64,000 bases of DNA, taken from positions 169,916 through 233,915 of the forward strand of contig CADBZW010000005.1 of assembly GCA_902799345.1 (NCBI GenBank), written 5' to 3'. A model generated the notes under the pieces. The model was not told the DNA's origin. It ran no database searches and saw nothing but the letters and a program-made list of their open reading frames with translations. Position numbers and translations under genes: made by a program. How positions within the stretch are numbered: the first letter of the stretch is position 1; every line of letters begins with the position of its first letter. Of this stretch, positions 3,817 through 62,293 are shown in pieces. This DNA comes from an uncultured Bacteroidia bacterium. Its GTDB lineage: Bacteria > Bacteroidota > Bacteroidia > Bacteroidales > F082.

Positions 3817-3980
3817 TATTTTTGCAGCGTCTGAAGCGCCCAGGCCCTCGCATCTTGCCTTTGTCGTGCGTTGGGCAGCTAACAGACAGGCCGAGCAAGC
3901 GGTCTCGTAGCAGGGGCGACTACGAAAAACTCCGACGGAGAGGTTCACGAACGACCCTTTACCGTCGGAGTCTTTTTTTA
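3817..3980 (+). ncRNA. Structured RNA A (island left edge), with promoter and terminator
   Basis: A -7 box TATTTTTG (3817-3824) is followed by CAGCGTC and about 150 bases with no reading frame. They end in a strong terminator: stem ACTCCGACGG (3929-3938) / CCGTCGGAGT (3962-3971), then a long T-run. The first 80 or so bases align with RNA B (minus strand, 11127 downward) at about 70% identity by eye. The changes preserve pairing: CGCA/TGCG becomes CACA/TGTG, and AGGCCG/CGGTCT becomes AGGTCG/CGGCCT around an invariant loop AGCAAG. That is the pattern of a conserved RNA. I do not recognise the family. It converges on the unknown operon, overlapping its last codon. Confidence 0.65.
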
Positions 3981-5054
3981 TTTTTTCTTTTTCGACAAAC
4001 AATTCTCGTTGAAGACGATCATCGGATAATGCGCTCCGAACTCCCCACGCACCACTTTCTTTCCCGGATACCAATCATAGTAAAACAGGTCTATCGTATC
4101 AGGCAACAACTTTCGCACCTGCTGGGCTAATGAAAAACCGCGCTCAAACCATTCTTTGTCTTGTTTTTTGGTCCAATTAAGAGAAGTAACATCATCATAC
4201 TCATCATACCATTCACGTAAGCCTTCGATAGAATCCAACTTGATTTCCCCTGCCGTGTCCGTCCAAAGGGAATCGGCACTGCCACAACAACTGCTGCCCC
4301 AAAACAAAGCATCGCCGAAGTCGCACCACATGCAGACCGTTTCCTTTATCTTGGGCATCCTCCTGAAACTGATGTCCGCTCCATAGCAAAATGGTGACCG
4401 GATATTCCATTCTATCAAAGGCGATTTGATGTCATTGTAGAAAGTCATATTATCCCACTTTGGTCCGCTCCTGTATCCATTTGGACCATAAAACCATTCT
4501 TTCGCAAAATCACTGCGTTGCGTGTTGTAGCAGTTGCCGCATAGTGCAAGAAGCGCAAGGTAAATCGAGTTGACGAAATCCTTGGTTTCACACAATGCAT
4601 AGAAAGGGATGCTGTCGGTATCAGAATCATACACAAAGAACAAGCCAATCTCAGGGTCGGTATTGGCATCATAATCATGAACTATTTCTTTTCCCGGATC
4701 AGGCCTTTCAACCGAAAAACCAAAGCTCGCAGCACGCAACATTTCGTAATGAAGATACACCTCCTTGCCCTCGCAATCGATTCGCATCGTGTGCTCCAAT
4801 TGGATACCCTTCACGATATCTTCGAGCCACATCGTCATTTCAACGAAAGGATCAAAGACCACACTGCAATCGCAAGTCAGCCGTTTTTTCCCGTTCAGGT
4901 ACATCTCCATATCAATCCATCCCGCTTCGGGCGGAGTGAAATAGAAGAAGGTGGAATCCAACTTCTTAAACAAGTCTTTACGCTCCGAAATTTCTTTGTA
5001 TACACGGCTCCTTTCGGCGAACCAACCGTTTTCATACTCCAGTTCCATAATCAT
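3978..5054 (-). CDS. Unknown protein, paralogue of the 5720-6835 product
   Basis: The protein has 358 residues, no signal peptide and no membrane segment. It is clearly paralogous to the product of 5720-6835. Shared blocks include FFYFTPPEAGWI near residue 35, EIGLF-VYDS, FVNSIYLALLAL-GNCYNTQ mid-protein, MPKIKETV-MWCDFG-ALFWG, and LLPDTIDLFYYDWYP near the end. I do not recognise a family. It is the last gene of a four-gene minus-strand operon, 12 bases after the DUF5618-like gene. Base composition is poorer in GC than the flanking housekeeping genes, which suggests horizontal acquisition. Confidence 0.7.
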   Translation of the reverse strand: MIMELEYENGWFAERSRVYKEISERKDLFKKLDSTFFYFTPPEAGWIDMEMYLNGKKRLTCDCSVVFDPFVEMTMWLEDIVKGIQLEHTMRIDCEGKEVYLHYEMLRAASFGFSVERPDPGKEIVHDYDANTDPEIGLFFVYDSDTDSIPFYALCETKDFVNSIYLALLALCGNCYNTQRSDFAKEWFYGPNGYRSGPKWDNMTFYNDIKSPLIEWNIRSPFCYGADISFRRMPKIKETVCMWCDFGDALFWGSSCCGSADSLWTDTAGEIKLDSIEGLREWYDEYDDVTSLNWTKKQDKEWFERGFSLAQQVRKLLPDTIDLFYYDWYPGKKVVRGEFGAHYPMIVFNENCLSKKKK

Positions 5055-5066
5055 TGTATTTTTTAA

Positions 5067-5711
5067 TTATGAAAACACCAAAAGATTAAAACGTTTTTTC
5101 TCTTCTGGAGTTATCAAGTCAAGGTTTTTTGCCATCCAATGCTTATATGCCGTCTCAACAATATCATTTCTTTTCAGGTTTGCTTTTGCCAACATCAAAT
5201 CCAACAATTCATTCTTTTGTCTATCAGCCTCTTTATGCCTTTGTTTTTCCTCTTCTTTTTGCTTTTTCCATTCCTCTTCATCTCTGCGACTTTCCTCTTC
5301 TTTTTGTTGCTCGACAATGGCTTCCCTGCTCTTGCACCAATCGAGCAGCTTTTCGCCATAAGACATGGCTCTATCGCATATCACCTTGTCCTTTTCGCCA
5401 TCGCAAGCCATGGTGAAATTCAGCAAGTTATAAGCCGATTCAAAAACGGTGACGATTTTACTGTCAACGCCAGTGAGCCACTCTTTATACTTGGCTTTGT
5501 CGTATTCGCTTACATACTCATGGCAATCCCTATGTTCTTGGTATAGCACATAGTCCAATGCTTCAACGCACCCTTCCCATGCTGTCCTTCCTGCCTTTTT
5601 TATGCTTTTTGCGTCAGCATAGTGTTCATCGTCTTCCAGCGAAGTCTTGTCCAATATGTCCTTCGCTTTTTGCAGGTATGCTTCTGCTTTTTTCATTGGA
5701 TGCTTTTTCAT
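5067..5711 (-). CDS. Unknown protein with DUF5618-like helical N-terminus, paralogue of 9362-9997
   Basis: The protein has 214 residues. The N-terminal half (KAEAYLQKAKDIL, then Y-DAKSIKKAGRTAWEG, FESAYNLLNF) resembles the small helical DUF5618 family of Bacteroidetes. The second half is a charged coiled coil of Glu/Lys/Gln (about residues 130-175), and a short tail ends LITPEEKKRFNLLVF. The product of 9362-9997 has the same architecture. It sits between two paralogous genes, 8 and 12 bases away, in one operon. The DUF5618 assignment is tentative; function is unknown. Confidence 0.65.
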   Translation of the reverse strand: MKKHPMKKAEAYLQKAKDILDKTSLEDDEHYADAKSIKKAGRTAWEGCVEALDYVLYQEHRDCHEYVSEYDKAKYKEWLTGVDSKIVTVFESAYNLLNFTMACDGEKDKVICDRAMSYGEKLLDWCKSREAIVEQQKEEESRRDEEEWKKQKEEEKQRHKEADRQKNELLDLMLAKANLKRNDIVETAYKHWMAKNLDLITPEEKKRFNLLVFS

Positions 5712-5719
5712 AGTTCATT

Positions 5720-6835
5720 TCATTTTTTCGTTTTCGGCAAACAATTCTCGTTAAAAACAATCATCGGGCACCTTGCTTCATGCTTGTAAACAATCTTAGG
5801 TTTCTTTGATATTACGCACTCATCACCATCACGCACGACTCTCTTTCGCGGATACCAATCATAGTAAAACAGGTCTATCGTATCAGGCAACAACTTTCGC
5901 ACCTCCAAGGCAAAAGAAAAGCCGCGCTCTTGAAAGTCGTTCCATCGCTTTTTGGACCAATCTTTTTCGGGAAGATGCGCGGAATCATACTCATTATACC
6001 ACTCTTTCAATCCCTTGATTGAATCCAACCGAATTTCTCCAGCAGTGTCAGTAGAGATGCTTTCAACATCACCGATACAAGCACCCTCATTAATTGTTCC
6101 TCTACCCCAAAACAAAGCACCACCGAAATCGCACCACATACTTACCGTTTCTTTTATCTTGGGCATTTTCCTGAAATGTTTGTCGCCACAAAAGCACTGT
6201 GGATTTTGGATTTTCCATTCTATCAAAGGCGATTTGATAGAATTGTATACAGTCAAATGGTCCAGCTTCTTCCCGTTCCGGAGGTCGTTTTCATCATAAA
6301 ACCATTCCTCTGCAAAATTGCTGTGTTGTGTGTTGTAGCAGTTGCCAAAAAGCGCAAGAAGTGCGAGATAAATCGAGTTGACAAAATCTCCCGTTTCGCA
6401 GAGGGCATAAAACGGTATGGTATCAGAACACGAATCATAGACATAAAACAGGCCAATTTCCGAAAAGACATCTGTCCGAGAATGGCGCCATTTATCTTTT
6501 GTGCTTATGACAAAGTCTGCGTCACGAAGTTTCTCATAGTGCAAATACATCTCTTCGCCCTCACAATCAATATGCATGGTCGTTTCCATATTTCTGCTAC
6601 GAACGATATCTTCAAGCCATCGTTTCATGTCGGGGAACGGGTCATGCACACAGCTACATGCGCAAGTCAGCCGTTTTTCCCCGTTCAGGTACATTTCCAT
6701 ATTAATCCAACCCGCTTCGGGCGGAGTGAAATAGAAGAACGTGGAATCCAAGTTCTTAAACAAGTTTTCGCGCTCAGAAAGCTCTTTGTACACGCGGCTC
6801 CTTTCGGCAAGCCAACCTTTTTGATAGTATAACAT
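5720..6835 (-). CDS. Unknown protein, paralogue of the 3978-5054 product
   Basis: The protein has 371 residues and the same conserved blocks as its paralogue (STFFYFTPPEAGWI, KRLTCACS, ETGDFVNSIYLALLALFGN, MPKIKETVSMWCDFGGALFWG, KLLPDTIDLFYYDWYP, MIVFNENCL). It carries two short insertions relative to it, near the ALFWG block and before the C-terminus. It is probably cytoplasmic because no export signal is seen. It begins 13 bases after the leucine-rich repeat gene, so all four genes from 8663 to 3978 look cotranscribed. The tandem pair separated by the DUF5618-like gene suggests duplication of a two-gene unit. Confidence 0.7.
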   Translation of the reverse strand: MLYYQKGWLAERSRVYKELSERENLFKNLDSTFFYFTPPEAGWINMEMYLNGEKRLTCACSCVHDPFPDMKRWLEDIVRSRNMETTMHIDCEGEEMYLHYEKLRDADFVISTKDKWRHSRTDVFSEIGLFYVYDSCSDTIPFYALCETGDFVNSIYLALLALFGNCYNTQHSNFAEEWFYDENDLRNGKKLDHLTVYNSIKSPLIEWKIQNPQCFCGDKHFRKMPKIKETVSMWCDFGGALFWGRGTINEGACIGDVESISTDTAGEIRLDSIKGLKEWYNEYDSAHLPEKDWSKKRWNDFQERGFSFALEVRKLLPDTIDLFYYDWYPRKRVVRDGDECVISKKPKIVYKHEARCPMIVFNENCLPKTKK

Positions 6836-6848
6836 AGGTTATCAACAT

Positions 6849-8663
6849 TTAGTCAACAAACTTCTCCACCATCTCCAAGGAAAGGAAGCTGAGGTGGTCG
6901 TGCTCGCTGAACAATTCTTCCGGTATTTTCTTGCCTTGCCTTACACATTCCCTGACGGTTTCCGAACATTCCTCGGGTAAAACCGTTACCGCCATATCGG
7001 ATGAATCCACATATTTGGAATCGATTTGCTCTTTTGACGGCTTGTAAAATTCCGCAACGACATATTGTTTCGAATAGTGTTTCAACTTCACAATGTCGCC
7101 TGGGCCGAAAGGATGGGGAATATCGACATAGCAGTCAATGAGGTTTTCTATTTCTTTTGGAACAGGATAGTCTCCAAGATAATAGTCGTTATTAACAGGA
7201 GAATAGTCCTTTTCAAGCTCGAATGAGCCAATCGCGTTTTCAAGGGCCTTGTCCTTGGCTTTGTATTGTCGGCAAATGATTTTGTCATACTTTTTCAGGG
7301 CTTCCTTTTTTCTCATGTCATCCTCGCAGGCAAAACTATGCGGATACTTGCCAAGCAGAATCTCTTTGTAGCCCACCCGTGCTCCGCTTTCAGGGTCTTT
7401 GTAATCATAGTAGACGCCGAATGCCGCTATTCTCCTTGTCTTAAAGTTCCCGTGTAACTCAGCCCAGTTTTTTTCCCATTTGTTTTTTAAGTAGGAAAGC
7501 AGCAACCGTTCTTGCTTGGTAAGTATAGTCGTTTGCTCCAGATCCCAGTAGAACCACTTCTTATTGCTGCCCGCAGGTTCCGGCGACATTTCCACCAAAT
7601 TGATTATCTCTTTCGGGGAGAGCAATAGATCTTTTTCAAGCAAATAGTTCCGCTCGGTGTCCGATTCCACATAACCTATCGCACGGCGGGAAAATTCCAG
7701 CTGGGTCTCGACATCCATAACACATTTATAGACAAGTTTGTTGATGCCTTCCACGGCGAAATAGGGATTGTCAGTGTCTATGACAATGGCAGGTTTTCTC
7801 GCGACATCATCACCAACGATGTAATCATACCAGAAATCATCGGCGATATACTTTGTGGTGGCAGGCAAACGAACTTGTTCAAATTCGGTGAATGCGTAAC
7901 TTCCCAGATGCTCGAATCCATACGGGAACTCAATGATTCCATCGCCTTCCTCCCCGAAATGGAAGCAGTTGTCATCTTCTACGGTTTTGAGCGAAGATGG
8001 AAGTCTGTCAATTGCGCAATAGCGGAAGCAATAAGGTGGAAAAGTTTCAATTCTGTCCGAAACCCTTATGATACCTATATCGGCATAACAAAACGCGCCG
8101 TCACCAAGTGTCTCGACCGTCTCGGGCATGATGAGTTCTTCCAAATTCTCGACATTTGAGAAAGAACTCTCGCCAAATTCCTTCAACCCTGTCGGCAGAT
8201 CGATTTTTTCCATTTTCTCGTAGGCGGCAAAGGCCAAGCGGCCAATGGTTTCAATCCCTTCGGGAACAACGACGTGTTCGGTGTCGGGGTGATGCACAAG
8301 CACCTTCCTGTCGGGAGTCGTCAAAATGCCATCGTTGTAAACAAACCTTGTTCCATACTTCCTGTTTACAAGCATCTTAAAGATCATGGAAGGTTGTTCT
8401 TCATCGGCATCTTCCGGAATGTCCTCATCGTTGACATTACCCTCATAATCCAGCAAGTGCATATCGGTAATGTCAAATTCAACTGGATGGAAATCCTTGG
8501 CGATTTCGTTGAATCCGAAAAGCAATTCGTAGGAATAACTTCCTTTGTCATTAAATGGGTTGCAATACACGTTGCCAACCAAAACCATTTTCTCACAATC
8601 ACGGTTTTGCTCAATCCATTCAGCAAGATACAGCTTTCCAAATTCAAAAGTTGCCGTCTTCAT
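6849..8663 (-). CDS. BspA-type leucine-rich repeat protein, cytoplasmic
   Basis: The protein has 604 residues. Roughly residues 130-270 contain BspA/LRR_5-type repeats (VPEGIETIGRLAFAAYE, LPTGLKEFGESSFSN, MPETVETLGDGAFCYA), a fold usually used for protein binding. The remaining C-terminal half is not recognised. Unlike most BspA proteins there is no signal peptide, so it probably works inside the cell. I start it at 8663 rather than 8699 because the -7 box (8689-8696) overlaps the longer reading. It is the first gene of the four-gene operon driven by operator-promoter site 1. Confidence 0.7.
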   Translation of the reverse strand: MKTATFEFGKLYLAEWIEQNRDCEKMVLVGNVYCNPFNDKGSYSYELLFGFNEIAKDFHPVEFDITDMHLLDYEGNVNDEDIPEDADEEQPSMIFKMLVNRKYGTRFVYNDGILTTPDRKVLVHHPDTEHVVVPEGIETIGRLAFAAYEKMEKIDLPTGLKEFGESSFSNVENLEELIMPETVETLGDGAFCYADIGIIRVSDRIETFPPYCFRYCAIDRLPSSLKTVEDDNCFHFGEEGDGIIEFPYGFEHLGSYAFTEFEQVRLPATTKYIADDFWYDYIVGDDVARKPAIVIDTDNPYFAVEGINKLVYKCVMDVETQLEFSRRAIGYVESDTERNYLLEKDLLLSPKEIINLVEMSPEPAGSNKKWFYWDLEQTTILTKQERLLLSYLKNKWEKNWAELHGNFKTRRIAAFGVYYDYKDPESGARVGYKEILLGKYPHSFACEDDMRKKEALKKYDKIICRQYKAKDKALENAIGSFELEKDYSPVNNDYYLGDYPVPKEIENLIDCYVDIPHPFGPGDIVKLKHYSKQYVVAEFYKPSKEQIDSKYVDSSDMAVTVLPEECSETVRECVRQGKKIPEELFSEHDHLSFLSLEMVEKFVD

Positions 8664-8688
8664 ATCCGTTGTTTTTTGTTTTACGCGG

Positions 8689-8725
8689 CAAAAATACAAG
8701 CTGCTTGTTTCAAAACGTGAAACAT
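8689..8725 (-). promoter_or_regulatory. Operator-promoter module, site 1
   Basis: On the minus strand the palindrome TGTTTCA-CGTTT-TGAAACA (8706-8725 including a leading A) is followed nine bases later by the -7 box TATTTTTG (8689-8696). A T-run precedes the palindrome. The same arrangement occurs at 9092-9128, 10727-10763 and 11134-11170. It lies over the -33 region, so a bound protein would block or recruit polymerase. It drives the leucine-rich repeat gene operon. Confidence 0.75.
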
Positions 8726-8761
8726 GGCGAAAAAAAATCTAGTCGTTCAGAAAAGTTTTCG

Positions 8762-9024
8762 TAATTTTGCAGCGTCTTTATCCATTGCGGGTGTGTGATG
8801 ATGACTAGACAAGAGTGTCTGGGTGTCCCTACAACACTGGTTGAAGAAGCCGAGTCGGTCGGCTATATTCCACATCCGTCCGCCGCCCTGGCAGGTCTGC
8901 ACGATCACCTGACCAGCGGGGTACGGGACGTTGGGGGTGCAGACAACCCATACTGGCATCGGGCGGTTGCCAGCTCTGAAGACTGACATACGGGGAGTCC
9001 TTTGTGGGCTTCCCGTTTCCTTTT
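8762..9024 (+). ncRNA. Structured RNA C (mid-island), with promoter and terminator
   Basis: A -7 box TAATTTTG (8762-8769) followed by CAGCGTC, the same start as RNAs A and B, leads into about 250 bases. They are rich in paired arms: AGCCGA/TCGGCT, GTCTGCAC/GTGCAGAC, and CTGGCA/TGCCAG. The 3' end is an 11-bp stem (8990-9000 with 9006-9016) followed by TTTCCTTTT, a good intrinsic terminator. The opposite strand has an open frame of 103 codons that I regard as a shadow. I cannot assign a family; it is separate in sequence from A and B apart from the 5' end. Confidence 0.6.
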
Positions 9025-9091
9025 GCTTCATACTGATGTCACTGCATCTTGCATCCATAATAATCTATAATTTCCTTTTTTTTTGACGCGG

Positions 9092-9128
9092 CAAAGACAA
9101 AAAACAACTGTTTCGAAACATGAAACAT
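9092..9128 (-). promoter_or_regulatory. Operator-promoter module, site 2
   Basis: On the minus strand TGTTTCA-TGTTT-CGAAACA (one mismatch in the second arm) lies nine bases before TGTCTTTG, a weaker -7 box. The bases after the box, CCGCG, are the same as at site 1. The transcript would run antisense to RNA C towards site 1; no convincing gene starts there. It may control an antisense transcript. Confidence 0.6.
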
Positions 9129-9139
9129 GTCGTTTTTTT

Positions 9140-9309
9140 GAATCATATCAAAAAGAGAACTGCCGTCCCGAAAAGTCCCAAAAGAAACCTTAAAGAGGCA
9201 GCAGTTTCTTGTTATCGCTGGAGGGAACATACGCGAAGGTCCGCCCCTTACGTCTTGATAATTCATTTGTTTTTCATTCCGTGTCCGCGACCAACTGGCT
9301 ACAAAAGTA
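9140..9309 (-). ncRNA. Possible RNA E, minus strand
   Basis: A minus-strand -7 box TACTTTTG (complement of 9302-9309) is followed by about 150 bases without a good reading frame. They end in a modest stem AACTGC/GCAGTT (9158-9163 with 9201-9206) and a T-rich tract. It would be a separate short transcript between the DUF5618-like gene and site 2. The evidence is thinner than for RNAs A to D. Confidence 0.35.
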
Positions 9310-9361
9310 CAAAAAAACTGAAATACCGCCATCTGATTGCGTTTTTTCAACGAATCAATCC

Positions 9362-9997
9362 TCAAAACACCAGATAATCAAACCGTTTTTTCTCTTCAGG
9401 AGTCAACAAGTAGATGTTATCGCATACAAATTCTTGAAAAGCGATTTCGATGAGGTCTTTACGCTTTGTGCCCGTTTTATCAAGCAGCAGTTCAAACAGC
9501 TCCTTGCTTTGCCTCTTGACGATACGTCTGTCTTCCCTCTTGGTGGAATTAAACTTCTTCATCCTCTCTTCCCTGTCTCTTTTCTCTTCCTCGATTTGCT
9601 CGATGACACTTTGTATGTTTTTGCACATATCAATCAGGTATTCAGCCCTTTCAATGCCATCATCGCAAATATTTTTGGATTGATTTCCGTCCACTGACAA
9701 ATAAATTGCCAGCGCATAATAGGCAATATCAAAACCGTTATATAATCTATCGCCAATTTTCCTTGTTTCTTCCTCATAAGCCTTGTAATCATAGGTTTCT
9801 ATGTTTTTTTCAAGGGCATAATTCAAGGCTATGGAACAACCCTTCCACGCTGACCTTCCGGCCTTTTTTACGTTTTTCACATCAGCGTAATGCAACAAAA
9901 TGCCATCGTCCGAAATATCATCAATGGGTGTGTTGGCCAGTATGTCTTTTGCCTTTTGCAGGTATTCTTCCGCTTTTTGTATAGGGGTCTTTTTCAT
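9362..9997 (-). CDS. Unknown protein with DUF5618-like N-terminus, paralogue of 5067-5711
   Basis: The protein has 211 residues and the same plan as the 5067-5711 product: KAEEYLQKAKDIL, an ADVKNVKKAGRSAWKG block, a helical middle, a charged coiled coil near residues 135-165 and the tail LLTPEEKKRFDYLVF. It lies 18 bases after the gene at 10016-10708 and is probably in its operon, driven by site 3. Two family members under two copies of the same operator argue for one shared function. That function is unknown. Confidence 0.65.
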   Translation of the reverse strand: MKKTPIQKAEEYLQKAKDILANTPIDDISDDGILLHYADVKNVKKAGRSAWKGCSIALNYALEKNIETYDYKAYEEETRKIGDRLYNGFDIAYYALAIYLSVDGNQSKNICDDGIERAEYLIDMCKNIQSVIEQIEEEKRDREERMKKFNSTKREDRRIVKRQSKELFELLLDKTGTKRKDLIEIAFQEFVCDNIYLLTPEEKKRFDYLVF

Positions 9998-10015
9998 AGG
10001 GCTATATTTGCAAAA

Positions 10016-10708
10016 TCAAACATTTCTGAAACTAGTGTTTTTGTCGAAGCCCGCCGATTCCAGTTTCTGGATGTCGCTACGAGTATCAACTATCGGTTTT
10101 TCCTTCTGCGAAGAGAGAAACTCATAGATTGCCTTCCACATCTCTTCCGAAGGAATGACTTTGGGAATATAGGTCTCACATAGAATAGGATTGTCCACCC
10201 GTTTGGCAACATCCACTTTTCTCTTACCCCATTCAACCTCTCCCGTCCAAAAGCTAAAAAGCAGACTGCAAGGAGCTAACGCGATGGGCGAATCCGAAAT
10301 ACGGTCCTTCACCTCATGCTCCGTTCTGATCAGCCTATAATCCACACATAGACTATTGTTTTTGGTATCAATCCATCTTTCTACCTCAAAGCAATACCGA
10401 TTCCATCCGACTTCCAAGACATAATGGAAAACCCTACCTTCAAGCCTAGTCTTGTGATAAAACCTTTTTTTCGTTTTTTCCACTTCACTCCTATTGCGAA
10501 CGCTGTTCAACTCCCATATTTGTTTGGCTTCCATAGGTTTGTCGTCAGGCAATAATGTGGTGGCGAAACATTCTTCCAAACCAGATTGCAAGACGCCTGG
10601 TGCATTGAGCGACTTTGAACCTCTGCGGTCAAAGACAATCTGTTCGTCAATGCCATACACGCCCGACAGATAATCGTAGTAGTCTTTCTTGTTATCGATG
10701 ATTTTCAT
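10016..10708 (-). CDS. Conserved Bacteroidetes protein of unknown function (KIIDNKKDYYDYL family)
   Basis: The protein has 230 residues. The opening KIIDNKKDYYDYLSGVYGID, followed by a DRRGS motif, is one I associate with a recurrent uncharacterised Bacteroidetes family, but no catalytic motif stands out. There is no signal peptide. I start it at 10708; the longer reading begins in the -7 box region. It is the first gene after operator-promoter site 3 and is followed by the DUF5618-like gene. Confidence 0.65.
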   Translation of the reverse strand: MKIIDNKKDYYDYLSGVYGIDEQIVFDRRGSKSLNAPGVLQSGLEECFATTLLPDDKPMEAKQIWELNSVRNRSEVEKTKKRFYHKTRLEGRVFHYVLEVGWNRYCFEVERWIDTKNNSLCVDYRLIRTEHEVKDRISDSPIALAPCSLLFSFWTGEVEWGKRKVDVAKRVDNPILCETYIPKVIPSEEMWKAIYEFLSSQKEKPIVDTRSDIQKLESAGFDKNTSFRNV

Positions 10709-10726
10709 GCTTCCTAATTTTGGCGG

Positions 10727-10763
10727 CAAAAATAAAAGCCAATTGTTTCATAACATGAAACAT
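10727..10763 (-). promoter_or_regulatory. Operator-promoter module, site 3
   Basis: On the minus strand the perfect-armed palindrome TGTTTCA-TGTTA-TGAAACA lies nine bases before TATTTTTG (10727-10734). It follows directly on the terminator of RNA B and drives the two-gene operon 10708-9362. Confidence 0.75.
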
Positions 10764-10777
10764 CCTCAAAAAAGCAT

Positions 10778-11127
10778 AAAAAACCGCCGACGGCTAAAGG
10801 CTTTTTGCTGCCCTTGCCGCCGGCGGCTGTATTTTGTTTCGGTGAACCAAGGTAGGTTTGTACTACGTTTGGCCTACGCACCTGAAGGTTACGTTTTGTC
10901 GCCAACAGGTGGGAGCGAAACAGAAGGTCTTGGCCTTCAAAAATGCAGTGTCGATACCTCCGCAAGGATACTCGTAGGATCGGTTTTATGGCCAGCCCTG
11001 TTTATTGGCCAACGACACCGCTTATTAAACAAGGGGATGCCAACAACACCCCTAAGGCCGCTTGCTCGACCTATCCGTTAACCACCCAACACACAATGAA
11101 GCAAGATGTGAGGGCTTTGGCAGATGG
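10778..11127 (-). ncRNA. Large structured RNA B
   Basis: This is an RNA of about 345 bases. It starts just after the -7 box TATTTTTG at 11134-11141 with CAGCGTCC and ends in a GC-rich hairpin (10784-10826) followed by six Ts on the minus strand. The 5' 80 bases are homologous to RNA A with compensatory changes. The remainder contains further long-range pairs such as GTGTCG/CGACAC and CACCTG/CAGGTG, absent from RNA A. The size suggested RNase P RNA or tmRNA, but the signature sequences of both are missing. Its promoter carries operator site 4. Confidence 0.65.
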
Positions 11128-11133
11128 ACGCTG

Positions 11134-11170
11134 CAAAAATACAAAACCATTGTTTCACAGCGTGAAACAT
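11134..11170 (-). promoter_or_regulatory. Operator-promoter module, site 4
   Basis: On the minus strand TGTTTCA-CGCTG-TGAAACA lies nine bases before TATTTTTG (11134-11141). It immediately follows the T-run of RNA D and drives RNA B. This shows that the same regulator would control an RNA gene as well as protein operons. Confidence 0.75.
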
Positions 11171-11174
11171 GACG

Positions 11175-11378
11175 AAAAAAAAACTTTCAGGACAGCCGGT
11201 AGCAGCAACTAATGATAGGCTGTGGTGCCAATCCTGAAAGTATTCTATTGTCGCATCCAAAAGGAAGCAGTACCCGCGTCACTTGTGACGGGTGGGGACA
11301 ACCACCCTGCTTCGGTCTGCCGACCCATGTCCCGTTTCCGGAGATCTACACAGCAACCAGATCGACACTGCAAAAGTA
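11175..11378 (-). ncRNA. Structured RNA D, divergent from the WYL gene
   Basis: The minus-strand box TACTTTTG (11371-11378) is followed by CAGTGTC and about 190 bases. They close on themselves: TGTCGATC near the 5' end pairs with GATGCGACA, GAAGCAG with CTGCTTC, GTCAC with GTGAC, and a GAAA tetraloop sits on a short CCG/CGG stem. The transcript ends in a perfect 10-bp terminator stem (11183-11192 with 11232-11241) and nine Ts. No family is recognised. It lacks the TGTTTCA operator; a different small palindrome, TTGGAATCCAA, sits upstream of its promoter. Confidence 0.6.
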
Positions 11379-11419
11379 CAAAACTTTTTGGAATCCAACA
11401 TTACTTTACGGAATTTCCC

Positions 11420-11427
11420 TATTTTTG
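11420..11427 (+). promoter_or_regulatory. -7 box TATTTTTG for the WYL regulator
   Basis: The box lies 39 bases before the WYL ATG and is divergent from the promoter of RNA D about 45 bases away, so one bound regulator could act on both. Confidence 0.55.
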
Positions 11428-11466
11428 CAAACGTAATCAAAACAGTATCAGAACTGTTGGAACACC

Positions 11467-12366
11467 ATGAGAAACACCGACACATTCAGACAATACACTT
11501 GGTTAGTGAACACCATCCAAAGGGCAGGTGGCATCACCTTCGAAAGAATCGGACAGATGTGGATCGATAGCGACCTAAACGAAGGCAAGCCCTTGTCGCG
11601 CACCACGTTCTATCGCCTGCGCCAAGCCATCGACGACATGTTCGGCATCCGCATCGAGAGCGACAACCAGCACCGCTATTACATCAGCAACCCGGAAACA
11701 CTCTACGACAACTCGACCCAGAACTGGATGCTGCGAACCCTCACCGTCAGCAGTCTCCTCATGGACGGCCTTTCCATCAAAGACCAAATTGTGCTGGAAG
11801 ACATCCCTGCCGGATTGGAGCATCTCGAGACCATCATCGACGCCCTCAAAAACCGCCACGCACTGCGCATGGGCTACAAAAAATTCACCGACTCCGAGCC
11901 TTACACCACCCTCATCGAGCCTTATTGCCTCAAACTCTTCCGTCAACGTTGGTACCTACTCGGAAAAAGCGAAAGAAAAGACCATAAGATGGCTATCTAC
12001 GCCCTCGACCGCATAACGGAAATCACAGAAACAGAGACAAAGTACGAACTAGATGCCGACTTTGATGCCGAGGCCTTTTTCAAGGACTATTTTGGCGTGT
12101 TTATCGGAGAGGAGATGCCTGCACAACGCATCGTATTGCGCGCCTATTACAACATGCCCAACCTACTGCGCACCCTTCCCTTGCATCGCTCGCAAAAAGA
12201 AATATGCAGGACAGATGCCTATGCTGATTTTGAGTATTTTCTTGTCCCCACCATGGACTTCAGACAAGCCATCCTCAAAGAAGGCAACGAATTGGAGGTC
12301 ATCGAACCTCTATCGTTGCGCGAGATGATACACGATGAGCTAAAGGAGACAATTAAATTGTACTGA
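11467..12366 (+). CDS. WYL-domain transcriptional regulator
   Basis: The protein has 299 residues. An N-terminal winged-helix-like segment (about 1-75) is followed by a WYL domain around residues 140-190 (GYKKFTDSE, IEPYCLKLFRQRWYLLG, YALDRITEI) and a C-terminal extension with a VVLRAYYN-like block. WYL proteins sense nucleotides or nucleic acids and commonly control phage-defence or DNA-damage genes. This one is transcribed away from the RNA/protein island and is the only obvious regulator there, making it a candidate reader of the TGTTTCA operator. That link is inferred. Confidence 0.85.
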   Translation: MRNTDTFRQYTWLVNTIQRAGGITFERIGQMWIDSDLNEGKPLSRTTFYRLRQAIDDMFGIRIESDNQHRYYISNPETLYDNSTQNWMLRTLTVSSLLMDGLSIKDQIVLEDIPAGLEHLETIIDALKNRHALRMGYKKFTDSEPYTTLIEPYCLKLFRQRWYLLGKSERKDHKMAIYALDRITEITETETKYELDADFDAEAFFKDYFGVFIGEEMPAQRIVLRAYYNMPNLLRTLPLHRSQKEICRTDAYADFEYFLVPTMDFRQAILKEGNELEVIEPLSLREMIHDELKETIKLY

Positions 12367-61852: not shown

Positions 61853-62293
61853 TCAACGGGGCGAGAGAACCTCAAAAGTATTGTCAGGATAGACCAAAAT
61901 CAGCTGTTTCAAACCCGATTGCAGGGAAGAAATGGGACTTTCTTCTGACAAAACGGAGCGATTTTCTGAAAAAGAATGACTTTCGACAGATGGATTCGGC
62001 GTGTCTTCTGGTTCTTTGGATTCGACTGCATGGGTCTCGGCAGGAGGAGAGGTCACCACAAAAGGCTCCGACACAGTCATGGGGCCCATCCCGAAAACAA
62101 TCCAATCAAGATTATATTCTGGGAATGTCTCTTTCAGTTTCCGCACGAAATCCAGACTCGGGTTGTTGCGTCCCGAGAGGAGGTGGGAAACGTTGGAAGG
62201 TTGGATGCCGAGTCTGTCGGCAAACTCGGCAGCGGTCAAATTCTTCGCCCGGATGATGTGGGCGATCCGATCTTTCATTTCGTCGTTTTCCAT
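61853..62293 (-). CDS. XRE-family DNA-binding protein with low-complexity tail
   Basis: The protein has 146 residues. A helix-turn-helix is at about 10-65 (LTAAEFADRLGIQPSNVSHLLSGRNNPSLDFVRKL) with a following YNLDWIVFGMGPM block, common in Bacteroidetes XRE proteins; the rest is Ser/Pro/Glu-rich. It may repress from the AT-rich region just upstream. Met at 62278 is an alternative start. Confidence 0.75.
   Translation of the reverse strand: MENDEMKDRIAHIIRAKNLTAAEFADRLGIQPSNVSHLLSGRNNPSLDFVRKLKETFPEYNLDWIVFGMGPMTVSEPFVVTSPPAETHAVESKEPEDTPNPSVESHSFSENRSVLSEESPISSLQSGLKQLILVYPDNTFEVLSPR

Follow-up and report, generated by a model that had tools for sequence, protein, structure and literature searches.

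A short inverted repeat recurs ahead of four minus-strand promoters in a stretch of 64,000 nucleotides from an uncultured Bacteroidia bacterium (the window). The question raised by this locus is what the repeat controls there and whether it serves that locus alone.

An operator repeated at four promoters

The motif, TGTTTCA-N5-TGAAACA, is present in four copies in the window, all of which lie 9 nt ahead of a minus-strand -7 box that reads TATTTTTG at three copies and TGTCTTTG at 9099. Both the copies and the fixed spacing had been reported in the earlier note and were found again, with the end coordinates lowered by one because the motif is 19 bp long. Allowing up to two mismatches, the window contains four matches against 0.34 expected, a number reached in 0 of 100 shuffles. 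The copies and their promoters are as follows.

11151 to 11169, minus strand: operator copy 1, 9 nt from the -7 box at 11141-11134; promoter of RNA C
10744 to 10762, minus strand: operator copy 2, 9 nt from the -7 box at 10734-10727; promoter of the genes for a 230-aa protein and a DUF5618 protein
9109 to 9127, minus strand: operator copy 3, with one mismatch, 9 nt from the weak box TGTCTTTG at 9099-9092; predicted transcript antisense to RNA B
8706 to 8724, minus strand: operator copy 4, 9 nt from the -7 box at 8696-8689; promoter of the LRR operon

A perfect operator and box are kept at three of these four promoters, and in two of the four cases the T-run upstream is a terminator U-tract, that of RNA D (before 11151) or of RNA C (before 10744). 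The good operator promoters serve only RNA C and protein genes; RNAs A, B and D and a fifth RNA at 3.8 kb use promoters of their own, and at these and the window WYL promoters the best operator match within some 30 nt ahead of the box has 6-9 mismatches. As to the targets first proposed, the two protein operons stand, whereas RNA B and RNA C exchange roles once their strands are read from relatives: the promoter at 11151 is the sense promoter of RNA C because RNA C lies on the minus strand, and that at 9109 is antisense to RNA B because RNA B most likely lies on the plus strand. The protein genes behind copies 2 and 4 are listed below.

10016 to 10708, minus strand: 230-aa protein, first gene behind operator copy 2
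9362 to 9997, minus strand: DUF5618 protein, second gene behind operator copy 2
6849 to 8663, minus strand: 604-aa LRR_5 (BspA-type repeat) protein, first gene behind operator copy 4
5720 to 6835, minus strand: 371-aa protein, which resembles the 358-aa protein by eye
5067 to 5711, minus strand: second DUF5618 protein
3978 to 5054, minus strand: 358-aa protein, last gene of the LRR operon

A known defence system among seven island proteins was ruled out by PADLOC, which matched the WYL protein alone, and no immunity family was matched by the island proteins in Pfam or PADLOC. DUF5618 is present in 46 of 99 genomes, both copies of the genome under study (G000) lying inside the island. The LRR gene has its closest relatives in G028 (43%, in a frame with a stop) and G063 (30%), with weaker matches in 91 of the 99 genomes.

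The same operator at cas operons

A scan of the whole genome (3.13 Mb) returned eight operator sites with at most one mismatch, against one per strand for a reversed-pattern control, and not the hundreds of dispersed copies that the earlier note had named as the sign of a repeat element. Five of the eight carry a -7 box at the matching spacing, namely the four window copies and a site on another contig (C4:191407), and a dispersed repeat is ruled out by these counts. The C4 site, the sole operator-promoter outside the window in this genome, drives cas9 and is divergent from a second WYL gene.

A pattern search of 149 genomes, using a promoter form known in general for Bacteroidales, found 14 exact operator-promoters besides those of the window, spread over 13 genomes of a single genus out of 60 (one match for the reversed-pattern control). 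A WYL gene adjoins all 14, and cas9 or cas3 is visible at 13; in the sister genomes the figures are 13 operator-promoters in 12 genomes, 13 beside a WYL gene and 12 with cas9 or cas3 visible. Starting instead from the protein, a search for WYL orthologues gave ten loci, every one with the operator (nine perfect, one with a mismatch) 39-44 nt upstream of the WYL start, and nine with cas9 or cas3, the contig ending at the tenth; the related genomes are not independent, and seven of these loci have WYL proteins identical to those of the pattern or the genome scan. Pfam confirmed Cas9 and Cas3 domains in the three proteins tested; the names cas1, cas2, cas5, cas7 and cas8 and the subtypes II-C and I-C are our own presumed assignments. 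Among sites with two operator mismatches, inspection covered L180 and L181 and left out L172-L174 and L178; the two inspected have an intact box, matched no WYL, cas or RNA query, and may be weak non-cas sites.

At the level of sequence, these contexts show that cas operons of this genus have the motif in their promoters, next to a gene for a putative WYL regulator. The window motif looks like the cas operator of such a regulator, put to further use in an island that combines RNA and protein genes. The tight local regulon proposed earlier holds in so far as both kinds of gene are included, but the operator also serves beyond the window, since CRISPR-Cas operons here and in sister genomes carry it as a promoter element. 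The slot between the WYL gene and TypA that holds the island in the window holds cas genes in three relatives (L015, L018 and L019); the replacement of cas genes in this slot rests on synteny because the window protein falls in no small supported clade of the WYL tree (in which the G000 C4 row starts one codon late).

A candidate regulator

11467 to 12366, plus strand: WYL/WCX regulator of 299 aa (Pfam, PADLOC), candidate operator binder

The window protein matched the Pfam WYL family above cut-off (1.7e-14) and WCX at 20.8 bits against a cut-off of 23.9. No HTH family was matched in it by Pfam; its N-terminus is presumably of HTH type, as in related proteins. The segment PLSRTTFYRLRQ, which we take to be the recognition helix, is nearly invariant across the aligned WYL rows. 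The operator is probably bound by a WYL protein.

RNAs of the island

Five RNAs were delimited in the window, two of them composite.

10775 to 11133, minus strand: RNA C, three fused modules and a terminator hairpin
about 11025-11133, minus strand: RNA C module M1
about 10947-11025, minus strand: RNA C module M2
about 10826-10925, minus strand: RNA C module M3
about 10778-10825, minus strand: RNA C terminator hairpin, ending TTTTTT
11170 to 11370, minus strand: RNA D, two fused modules (D1, 11246-11370; D2, 11176-11245, with terminator); own -7 box at 11378, without operator
9145 to 9301, minus strand: RNA A, kin of the RNA beside PBECR3 genes; own -7 box at 9309, without operator
8770 to 9030, plus strand: RNA B, own -7 box at 8762 on the plus strand and hairpin terminator; strand from G021
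3825 to 3965, plus strand: fifth (3.8-kb) RNA, related to M1; own -7 box at 3817

Stand-alone relatives of each module of RNA C and RNA D, and of RNAs A and B, occur in sister genomes; compared with these, the modules of RNA C and RNA D have lost their inner promoters and inner U-tracts or terminators. A plus-strand RNA C was ruled out, its three modules showing box and terminator on the minus-type strand in relatives. RNA B on the minus strand was also rejected, from the box and terminator on the other strand in G021 and from folding (z -2.21 on plus against -0.64 on minus), the strand and kinship of this RNA resting on that single long relative. Rfam assigned the island RNAs to no known family: it matched two tRNAs in the whole window, a single PhrS hit at chance level in 8600-11480, and three tRNAs in 12 related loci.

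The covariation scores of D2 and M1 exceeded all 500 shuffles and that of M2 was modestly above them, in a test whose shuffles ignore relatedness and whose folds were derived from the same alignments; RNA A was too conserved for the test (2 of 16 pairs). The window copies preserve the tested folds of M1, M2 and D2 except for one broken pair in M2, which also carries a compensatory double change from UA to CG. Folding was moderately better than shuffles for RNA A (z -1.93), RNA B (z -2.21) and RNA D (z -1.67), and no better for the 3.8-kb RNA (z -0.27).

Convergent partner genes

The relatives elsewhere commonly face a small convergent gene whose end lies within 40 nt of the RNA, as a gap or an overlap: this was found in 6 of 6 rows for M1, 12 of 12 for M2 (10 distinct places), 3 of 3 for M3, 1 of 1 for D1 and 18 of 24 for RNA A, while five of eight D2 relatives have a near-full partner. 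Orphan RNAs are not special to the window locus, because six of the 24 RNA A rows elsewhere are also without a partner (one being cut by a contig end). The 3.8-kb RNA is convergent to the 358-aa gene, and no PBECR gene lies there. Four of the seven partners matched Pfam above cut-off, as PBECR1 for M2 and M3 and as PBECR3 for RNA A and D1; the M1 and D2 partners gave no above-chance match and the RNA B partner one sub-threshold match only.

Viewed from the nucleases, a convergent promoter box was present at 55 of 60 PBECR loci, with distance ranges fixed after looking at the data. For the 30 PBECR1 loci, located by profile search, TAnnTTTG lies 80-140 nt past the stop in 25 (4% of random 60-nt windows); for PBECR3 the box lies within 30-220 nt in 30 of 30 (12% of random 190-nt windows), both ranges having been so chosen, and an RNA A relative is found at 28 of these 30. 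Outside the genus, all four distinct full-length solo PBECR1 genes have a box at 87-103 nt. Some RNA-nuclease pairs sit in elements resembling tailless prophages. IMG/VR, scanned with six of the seven partners (all but that of D1), gave no relative in single-protein scans that can recover only close kin; in INPHARED the RNA A partner had no match and the M2 partner 111 records below 60% identity, mostly from Helicobacter hosts.

The window itself has no relative of the partner nucleases (best E 0.066), and its genome has no PBECR3 match and one PBECR1 match, the latter beside a different RNA. On contig C4 of the same genome a truncated PBECR3 adjoins an RNA A, a hint that the RNA can persist as its nuclease decays. 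By homology, the island RNAs are shown to be relatives of small RNAs convergent to small genes, several of them for predicted solo PBECR-type ribonucleases, and those genes are missing from the window.

Proposed explanation and alternatives

The reading we favour, at a probability of roughly 0.6, is that the island holds orphan RNA antidotes, partly under a CRISPR operator switched by a WYL protein. A stand-alone RNA and its nuclease would be antitoxin and toxin of one pair, the folded RNA acting to neutralise the nuclease, and the window would be a host array of such antidotes without their toxins, RNA C covering three kinds of nuclease, RNA D two, and RNAs A, B and the 3.8-kb RNA others; the island proteins may be further immunity factors. 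A WYL dimer would sit at about -31 of each operator promoter and switch RNA C and the protein operons in step with CRISPR-Cas upon invasion by a mobile element.

We infer activation to be somewhat likelier than repression (about 60:40). It is favoured because the operator promoters are without the upstream TTG common in stand-alone sRNA promoters (at -24 to -20 before the box in 38 of 55 sRNA promoters and 0 of 17 operator promoters), an absence partly forced because operator letters occupy that place, and because the operator lies 9-10 nt from the cas box and 15-17 nt from the WYL box. The classical TTTG makes no difference (2 of 55 against 0 of 17).

Could the island instead be debris of a domesticated prophage, its RNAs left over after nuclease loss, its operators duplicated locally from a former cas promoter, and no antidote function remaining? 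The cas genes in the same slot of three relatives, the decaying nuclease beside RNA A on C4, the prophage-like elements that house some pairs, the shuffle-like fold of the 3.8-kb RNA and the broken pair in M2 all agree with this. Decay fits poorly, however, with conserved module sequences, with folds of M1, M2 and D2 that hold but for that one pair, with the compensatory change in M2, with three of four promoters perfect in operator and box, and with the removal of inner promoters and terminators from RNA C and RNA D as if for one transcript; we regard it as unlikely. Still less probable is that the operator is bound by another factor, such as the XRE protein at 61853, the WYL gene being a mere neighbour. 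The window WYL gene is itself without the operator, as this would allow, but the constant adjacency at all 14 outside sites, the narrow 39-44 nt placement at the ten protein-found loci and the near-invariance of the putative recognition helix make such a binder improbable.

The two other alternatives concern what the RNAs do. They might control the nuclease mRNAs as antisense RNAs (type I-like), acting through the convergent 3′ ends and not as protein-binding antidotes: these ends abut or overlap by up to about 35 nt, an mRNA running 60 nt past its stop would pair strongly with the opposite-strand RNA, and RatA-type antisense antitoxins share such a layout. Yet RNA C and D1 keep the bodies, whereas the 3′ terminator parts, those beside the nuclease genes, have been lost from them or replaced, and by a crude duplex score the cognate coding region was not the best paired of seven in six of seven cases, D2 being the exception because its body overlaps the gene end. 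Antisense action is on these grounds quite unlikely. A ribonucleoprotein effector, with the RNA as guide, substrate or activator of the nuclease and the window RNAs as decoys or reprogramming RNAs, would account for the match between kind of nuclease and kind of RNA, as in any ribonucleoprotein, but RNAs without a nuclease, also in tandem (window; L109), are more in keeping with an antidote or decoy than with a guide, and we give this reading little credence.

The favoured reading of orphan antidotes has wider forms. In the first, an immune regulon, one WYL operator would switch both CRISPR-Cas and a composite multi-antidote RNA against phage-type ribonucleases. The WYL domain has an Sm-like fold and is a proposed RNA binder; the boldest form has it sensing RNA, or RNA ends, that the incoming nuclease has produced. 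In the general form, solo PBECR nucleases across Bacteroidales would each have a dedicated convergent RNA antidote. Taken whole, with these extensions, the immune-regulon reading falls slightly short of even odds.

Significance and relation to known systems

For the cas9 and cas3 operons of a rumen Bacteroidales genus, the analysis names a concrete operator and a candidate regulator to go with it. It also leads us to propose that PBECR ribonucleases have structured RNAs as partners and that hosts gather nuclease-free RNAs, fusing some into one regulated transcript. If true, this hints at a new layer of RNA-based immunity tied to CRISPR, in which adaptive DNA immunity and pre-emptive RNA antidotes would be triggered jointly, and the convergent nuclease-RNA arrangement would be an undescribed toxin-antitoxin layout.

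The candidate regulator here is of WYL type, as are BrxR, Sll7009 and PafBC. In the available parts of two reports (PMC9122601, PMC6789036), the BrxR site is an inverted repeat with a 5-bp spacer and Sll7009 regulates a CRISPR I-D locus. Unlike in those cases, one operator is common here to cas operons and an RNA island, and whereas BrxR has been shown to repress and PafBC activates, control here may be of either sign, activation being somewhat likelier.

Type III toxin-antitoxin systems have a tandem-repeat RNA antitoxin upstream of the toxin in one operon, CptIN and TenpIN being further examples. As far as the available accounts of ToxIN and AvcID go, the PBECR-RNA pairs resemble them in combining a protein toxin, here a putative one, with a structured RNA partner. 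They differ in that the nuclease is of PBECR kind and the convergent RNA has a separate promoter and terminator; by eye, no type III tandem repeats were found in the RNA sequences. PBECR ribonucleases were predicted in 2017, and the available text of that work (PMC5512222) describes solo versions in phages, has no occurrence of 'noncoding RNA' and mentions no RNA partner. A literature search reaching few subscription journals found no PBECR-RNA pair in print.

Acquired interbacterial defence clusters carry immunity proteins against T6SS effectors and an associated recombinase. The island resembles them and anti-addiction antitoxins, as portrayed in the available part of PMC12548467, in having what may be orphan immunity genes without toxins, and differs from these clusters in that the candidate immunity is by RNA, not protein, and under a CRISPR operator. 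In the CRISPR-regulated RNA toxin-antitoxin CreTA, the toxin RNA is repressed by Cascade. Both there and, putatively, here, genes of RNA toxin-antitoxin type are tied to cas genes; unlike CreTA, the antidote-like RNAs of this island share a transcription operator with cas.

Operator copies in the window and its genome

A pattern search for the 19-bp operator, TGTTTCA-N5-TGAAACA, bore out the earlier note's claim of four copies at a constant distance from minus-strand promoters. All four lie 9 nt ahead of the -7 box (a TAnnTTTG-type promoter element), which reads TATTTTTG in three cases and TGTCTTTG in one, and one copy carries a single mismatch.

Operator copies found by pattern search in the window
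8706-8724, operator copy at a minus-strand promoter
9109-9127, operator copy with one mismatch at a minus-strand promoter
10744-10762, operator copy at a minus-strand promoter
11151-11169, operator copy at a minus-strand promoter

With up to two mismatches the window held four matches against 0.34 expected, a count attained in none of 100 shuffles. The remaining promoters examined in the island (the RNA and protein genes beside the window's WYL-domain regulator gene, WYL), the WYL promoter included, resembled the operator at best with 6 to 9 mismatches. Across the 3.13-Mb assembly of the window's own genome (G000) there were eight matches with at most one mismatch, rather than hundreds, the reversed-pattern control giving one per strand. 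Five of the eight have the -7 box at the correct spacing: the four in the window and one at C4:191407, flanked by a second WYL gene and by cas9, the latter followed by a cas1-like gene.

The operator beside WYL and cas genes

Used as a protein query, the window WYL retrieved ten loci in other genomes, all with the operator (nine perfect, one with a mismatch) 39-44 nt upstream of the WYL start. The operator stands 15-17 nt from WYL's own box and 9 or 10 nt from the -7 box of the gene opposite, the latter spacing holding in these ten loci and on G000 C4. On the far side of the operator lies cas9 in six loci and cas3 in three; at L013 the contig ends. The exact operator plus box, searched as a pattern in 149 genomes, was found in 13, all of one genus among 60 (reversed-pattern control, one match). 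Outside the window there were 14 such sites, 12 sister genomes accounting for 13; a WYL gene adjoins all 14, and cas9 or cas3 is visible at 13, L031 being cut. The protein-found and pattern-found sets overlap in genomes (identical WYL rows) and are therefore not independent. Permitting two mismatches in the 99 genomes of the genus added cas sites in G064 and G079. Two-mismatch operator-like sites with an intact -7 box at L180 (G082:C3) and L181 (G058:C8) had no WYL, cas or known RNA nearby and are weak candidates for non-cas operator sites; four further rows of that search were left out.

The neighbourhood of L015, L018 and L019 comprises a cas operon, WYL and TypA, with FecCD/ABC genes too in two of them, and the window order at the matching neighbourhood is island, WYL, TypA. 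Since these three loci hold a cas operon there beside WYL and TypA, the island sits in a known cas slot. The genes beside six other WYL loci, G000 C4 included, we take to be aldolase-like and phosphoglucomutase-like; at L020 and L021 the contigs end and the WYL surroundings are cut. A WYL tree did not resolve the history of the slot.

RNA families and folds

Matches to RNA C (minus strand) were found in 32 of 149 genomes, own included, and fall into three separate stretches at about query positions 1-117, 120-192 and 217-315 (M1, M2 and M3). In sister genomes each of the three exists separately, as an RNA gene equipped with a TAnnTTTG and a terminator of its own. Within RNA C the inner promoters are missing; the M1 hairpin is kept but its U-tract is broken, the M2 terminator is lost, and that of M3 is replaced by another. 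RNA D consists of two stand-alone-type modules (D1 and D2) and has matches in 9 of 99 genomes, own included; for RNA A, 44 of 99 genomes gave matches, including a few short ones. The single long relative of RNA B is in G021, and its box and terminator indicate that RNA B is transcribed from the plus strand; the matches in 14 other sister genomes are confined to 44 nt or less near the ends. M1 also has a relative in a fifth RNA, at 3.8 kb.

Consensus folds, computed on the inferred strand, had 99.1% of cells paired for D2 and 97.1% for M1, with double changes in four and eight pairs, respectively, and covariation scores above all 500 shuffles. That of M2 (97.4% paired, double changes in three pairs) had a score reached by 3 of 500 shuffles, and the window copy shows one double change and one broken pair. 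Conservation of RNA A was too high for a covariation test. Single-fold z-scores were -4.95 for RNA C, -2.21 for B plus, -1.93 for A, -1.67 for D, -0.64 for B minus and -0.27 for the 3.8-kb RNA. At L109 (G023:C6, 8150-9150) four RNAs, each with its own box, stand in tandem without a partner gene (two RNA A, one M1-like and one new kind), followed by M1 and its partner.

Convergent partner genes

At sister-genome loci the stand-alone RNA converges on a small opposite-strand gene, facing its 3′ end. Counting the expected partner when it lay within 40 nt of the RNA, by gap or overlap, we found it in 6/6 rows for M1 (one with only the last 27 residues, one identified via a related partner), 12/12 for M2 (10 distinct places), 3/3 for M3 and 1/1 for D1. 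RNA A had it in 18 of 24 rows, each of at least 103 residues; the six others are L042 (twice), L092, L098, L102 (contig end) and L106. For D2, five of eight rows had a near-full partner, two had fragments of 16 and 19 residues, and one, at a contig edge, had none. Pfam matches above cut-off assigned the partners of M2 and M3 to PBECR1 and those of A and D1 to PBECR3, both predicted phage-type ribonuclease families; the B partner matched below cut-off, the D2 partner at chance level, and the M1 partner had no Pfam match. No relatives of the partner proteins were found in the window (best E 0.066). In the G000 assembly (91% complete) PBECR3 gave no match and PBECR1 a single one, accompanied by a different RNA; tblastn located a truncated PBECR3 next to an RNA A copy on C4 (L248, G000:C4:151500-157000).

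The converse search gave a similar layout. PBECR1 was found in 51 of the genus's 99 genomes versus 0 of 14 controls. At 25 of the 30 loci fetched, a convergent box follows the stop by 80-140 nt (random 60-nt windows, 4%); box distances in the remaining five are 51 and 219, 51 and 142, 59, 44 and 44 nt. PBECR3 occurs in 41 of 99, with a box at 30-220 nt in 30/30 loci fetched (random 190-nt windows, 12%) and an RNA A relative in 28/30. Both ranges were chosen post hoc and the loci are related. Order-wide, PBECR1 was found in 15 of 393 genomes, five of them of this genus. Ten loci outside it were examined: five full-length solo genes (four distinct places) all show the convergent box, at a distance of 87-103 nt; the other five (three very long frames, one cut, one stop-broken), whose true gene end is unreached or unclear, have no box within 220 nt.

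Several loci differ in arrangement. At L122 and L123 the RNA next to PBECR1 is apparently doubled or fused to a second RNA. PBECR3 domains also lie within very long open frames, probably polyvalent proteins, in G039:C62 (1543 aa) and G149:C21 (3967 aa). The elements at L107/L108 (G021:C4), L111 (G050:C20) and L121 (G157:C2), with three, two and one RNA-partner pairs, respectively, are by eye rich in small one-helix proteins and look like tailless prophages; that at L121 also carries an integrase and a Pox_A32-type ATPase (Pfam). At L120 (G028:C5, 8300-11730) an orphan D2 RNA converges on a gene related to the window LRR gene; ADP-ribosylglycohydrolase and DUF6642 genes lie nearby, and a two-mismatch search found no operator in G028.

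Predicted control and comparison with known systems

The operator centre lies at about -31 from the inferred start site. Of 55 stand-alone sRNA promoters, 38 have a TTG in the -24 to -20 interval ahead of the box; none of the 17 operator promoters does, the operator's own letters filling its place. TTG immediately before the box occurs in 42/55 and 13/17, respectively, and a classical TTTG test showed no difference (2/55 versus 0/17). The missing upstream TTG and the 9-10 nt spacing slightly favour activation over repression of these promoters under the predicted WYL control. Most likely, invasion would be sensed via the WYL domain and the transcription of the cas genes, RNA C and the two protein operons (230-aa plus DUF5618, and LRR) would change jointly, with RNAs A, B and D and the 3.8-kb RNA transcribed from their own promoters. 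From the pairing, the folds, the RNAs kept without a nuclease and the tandem orphan RNAs of L109, we infer that the RNAs neutralise the nucleases.

The WYL-type BrxR is a repressor (PMC9122601), contrary to the activation slightly favoured here, and PafBC is an activator (PMC6789036). Solo PBECR nucleases in phages were predicted in 2017 (PMC5512222); our literature search found no report of a PBECR-RNA pair. Precedents exist for RNA antitoxins, for orphan immunity arrays and for WYL control of defence; as far as our searches reach, the novelty lies in combining them, in the convergent layout of PBECR gene and RNA, and in the fused antidote-like RNA.
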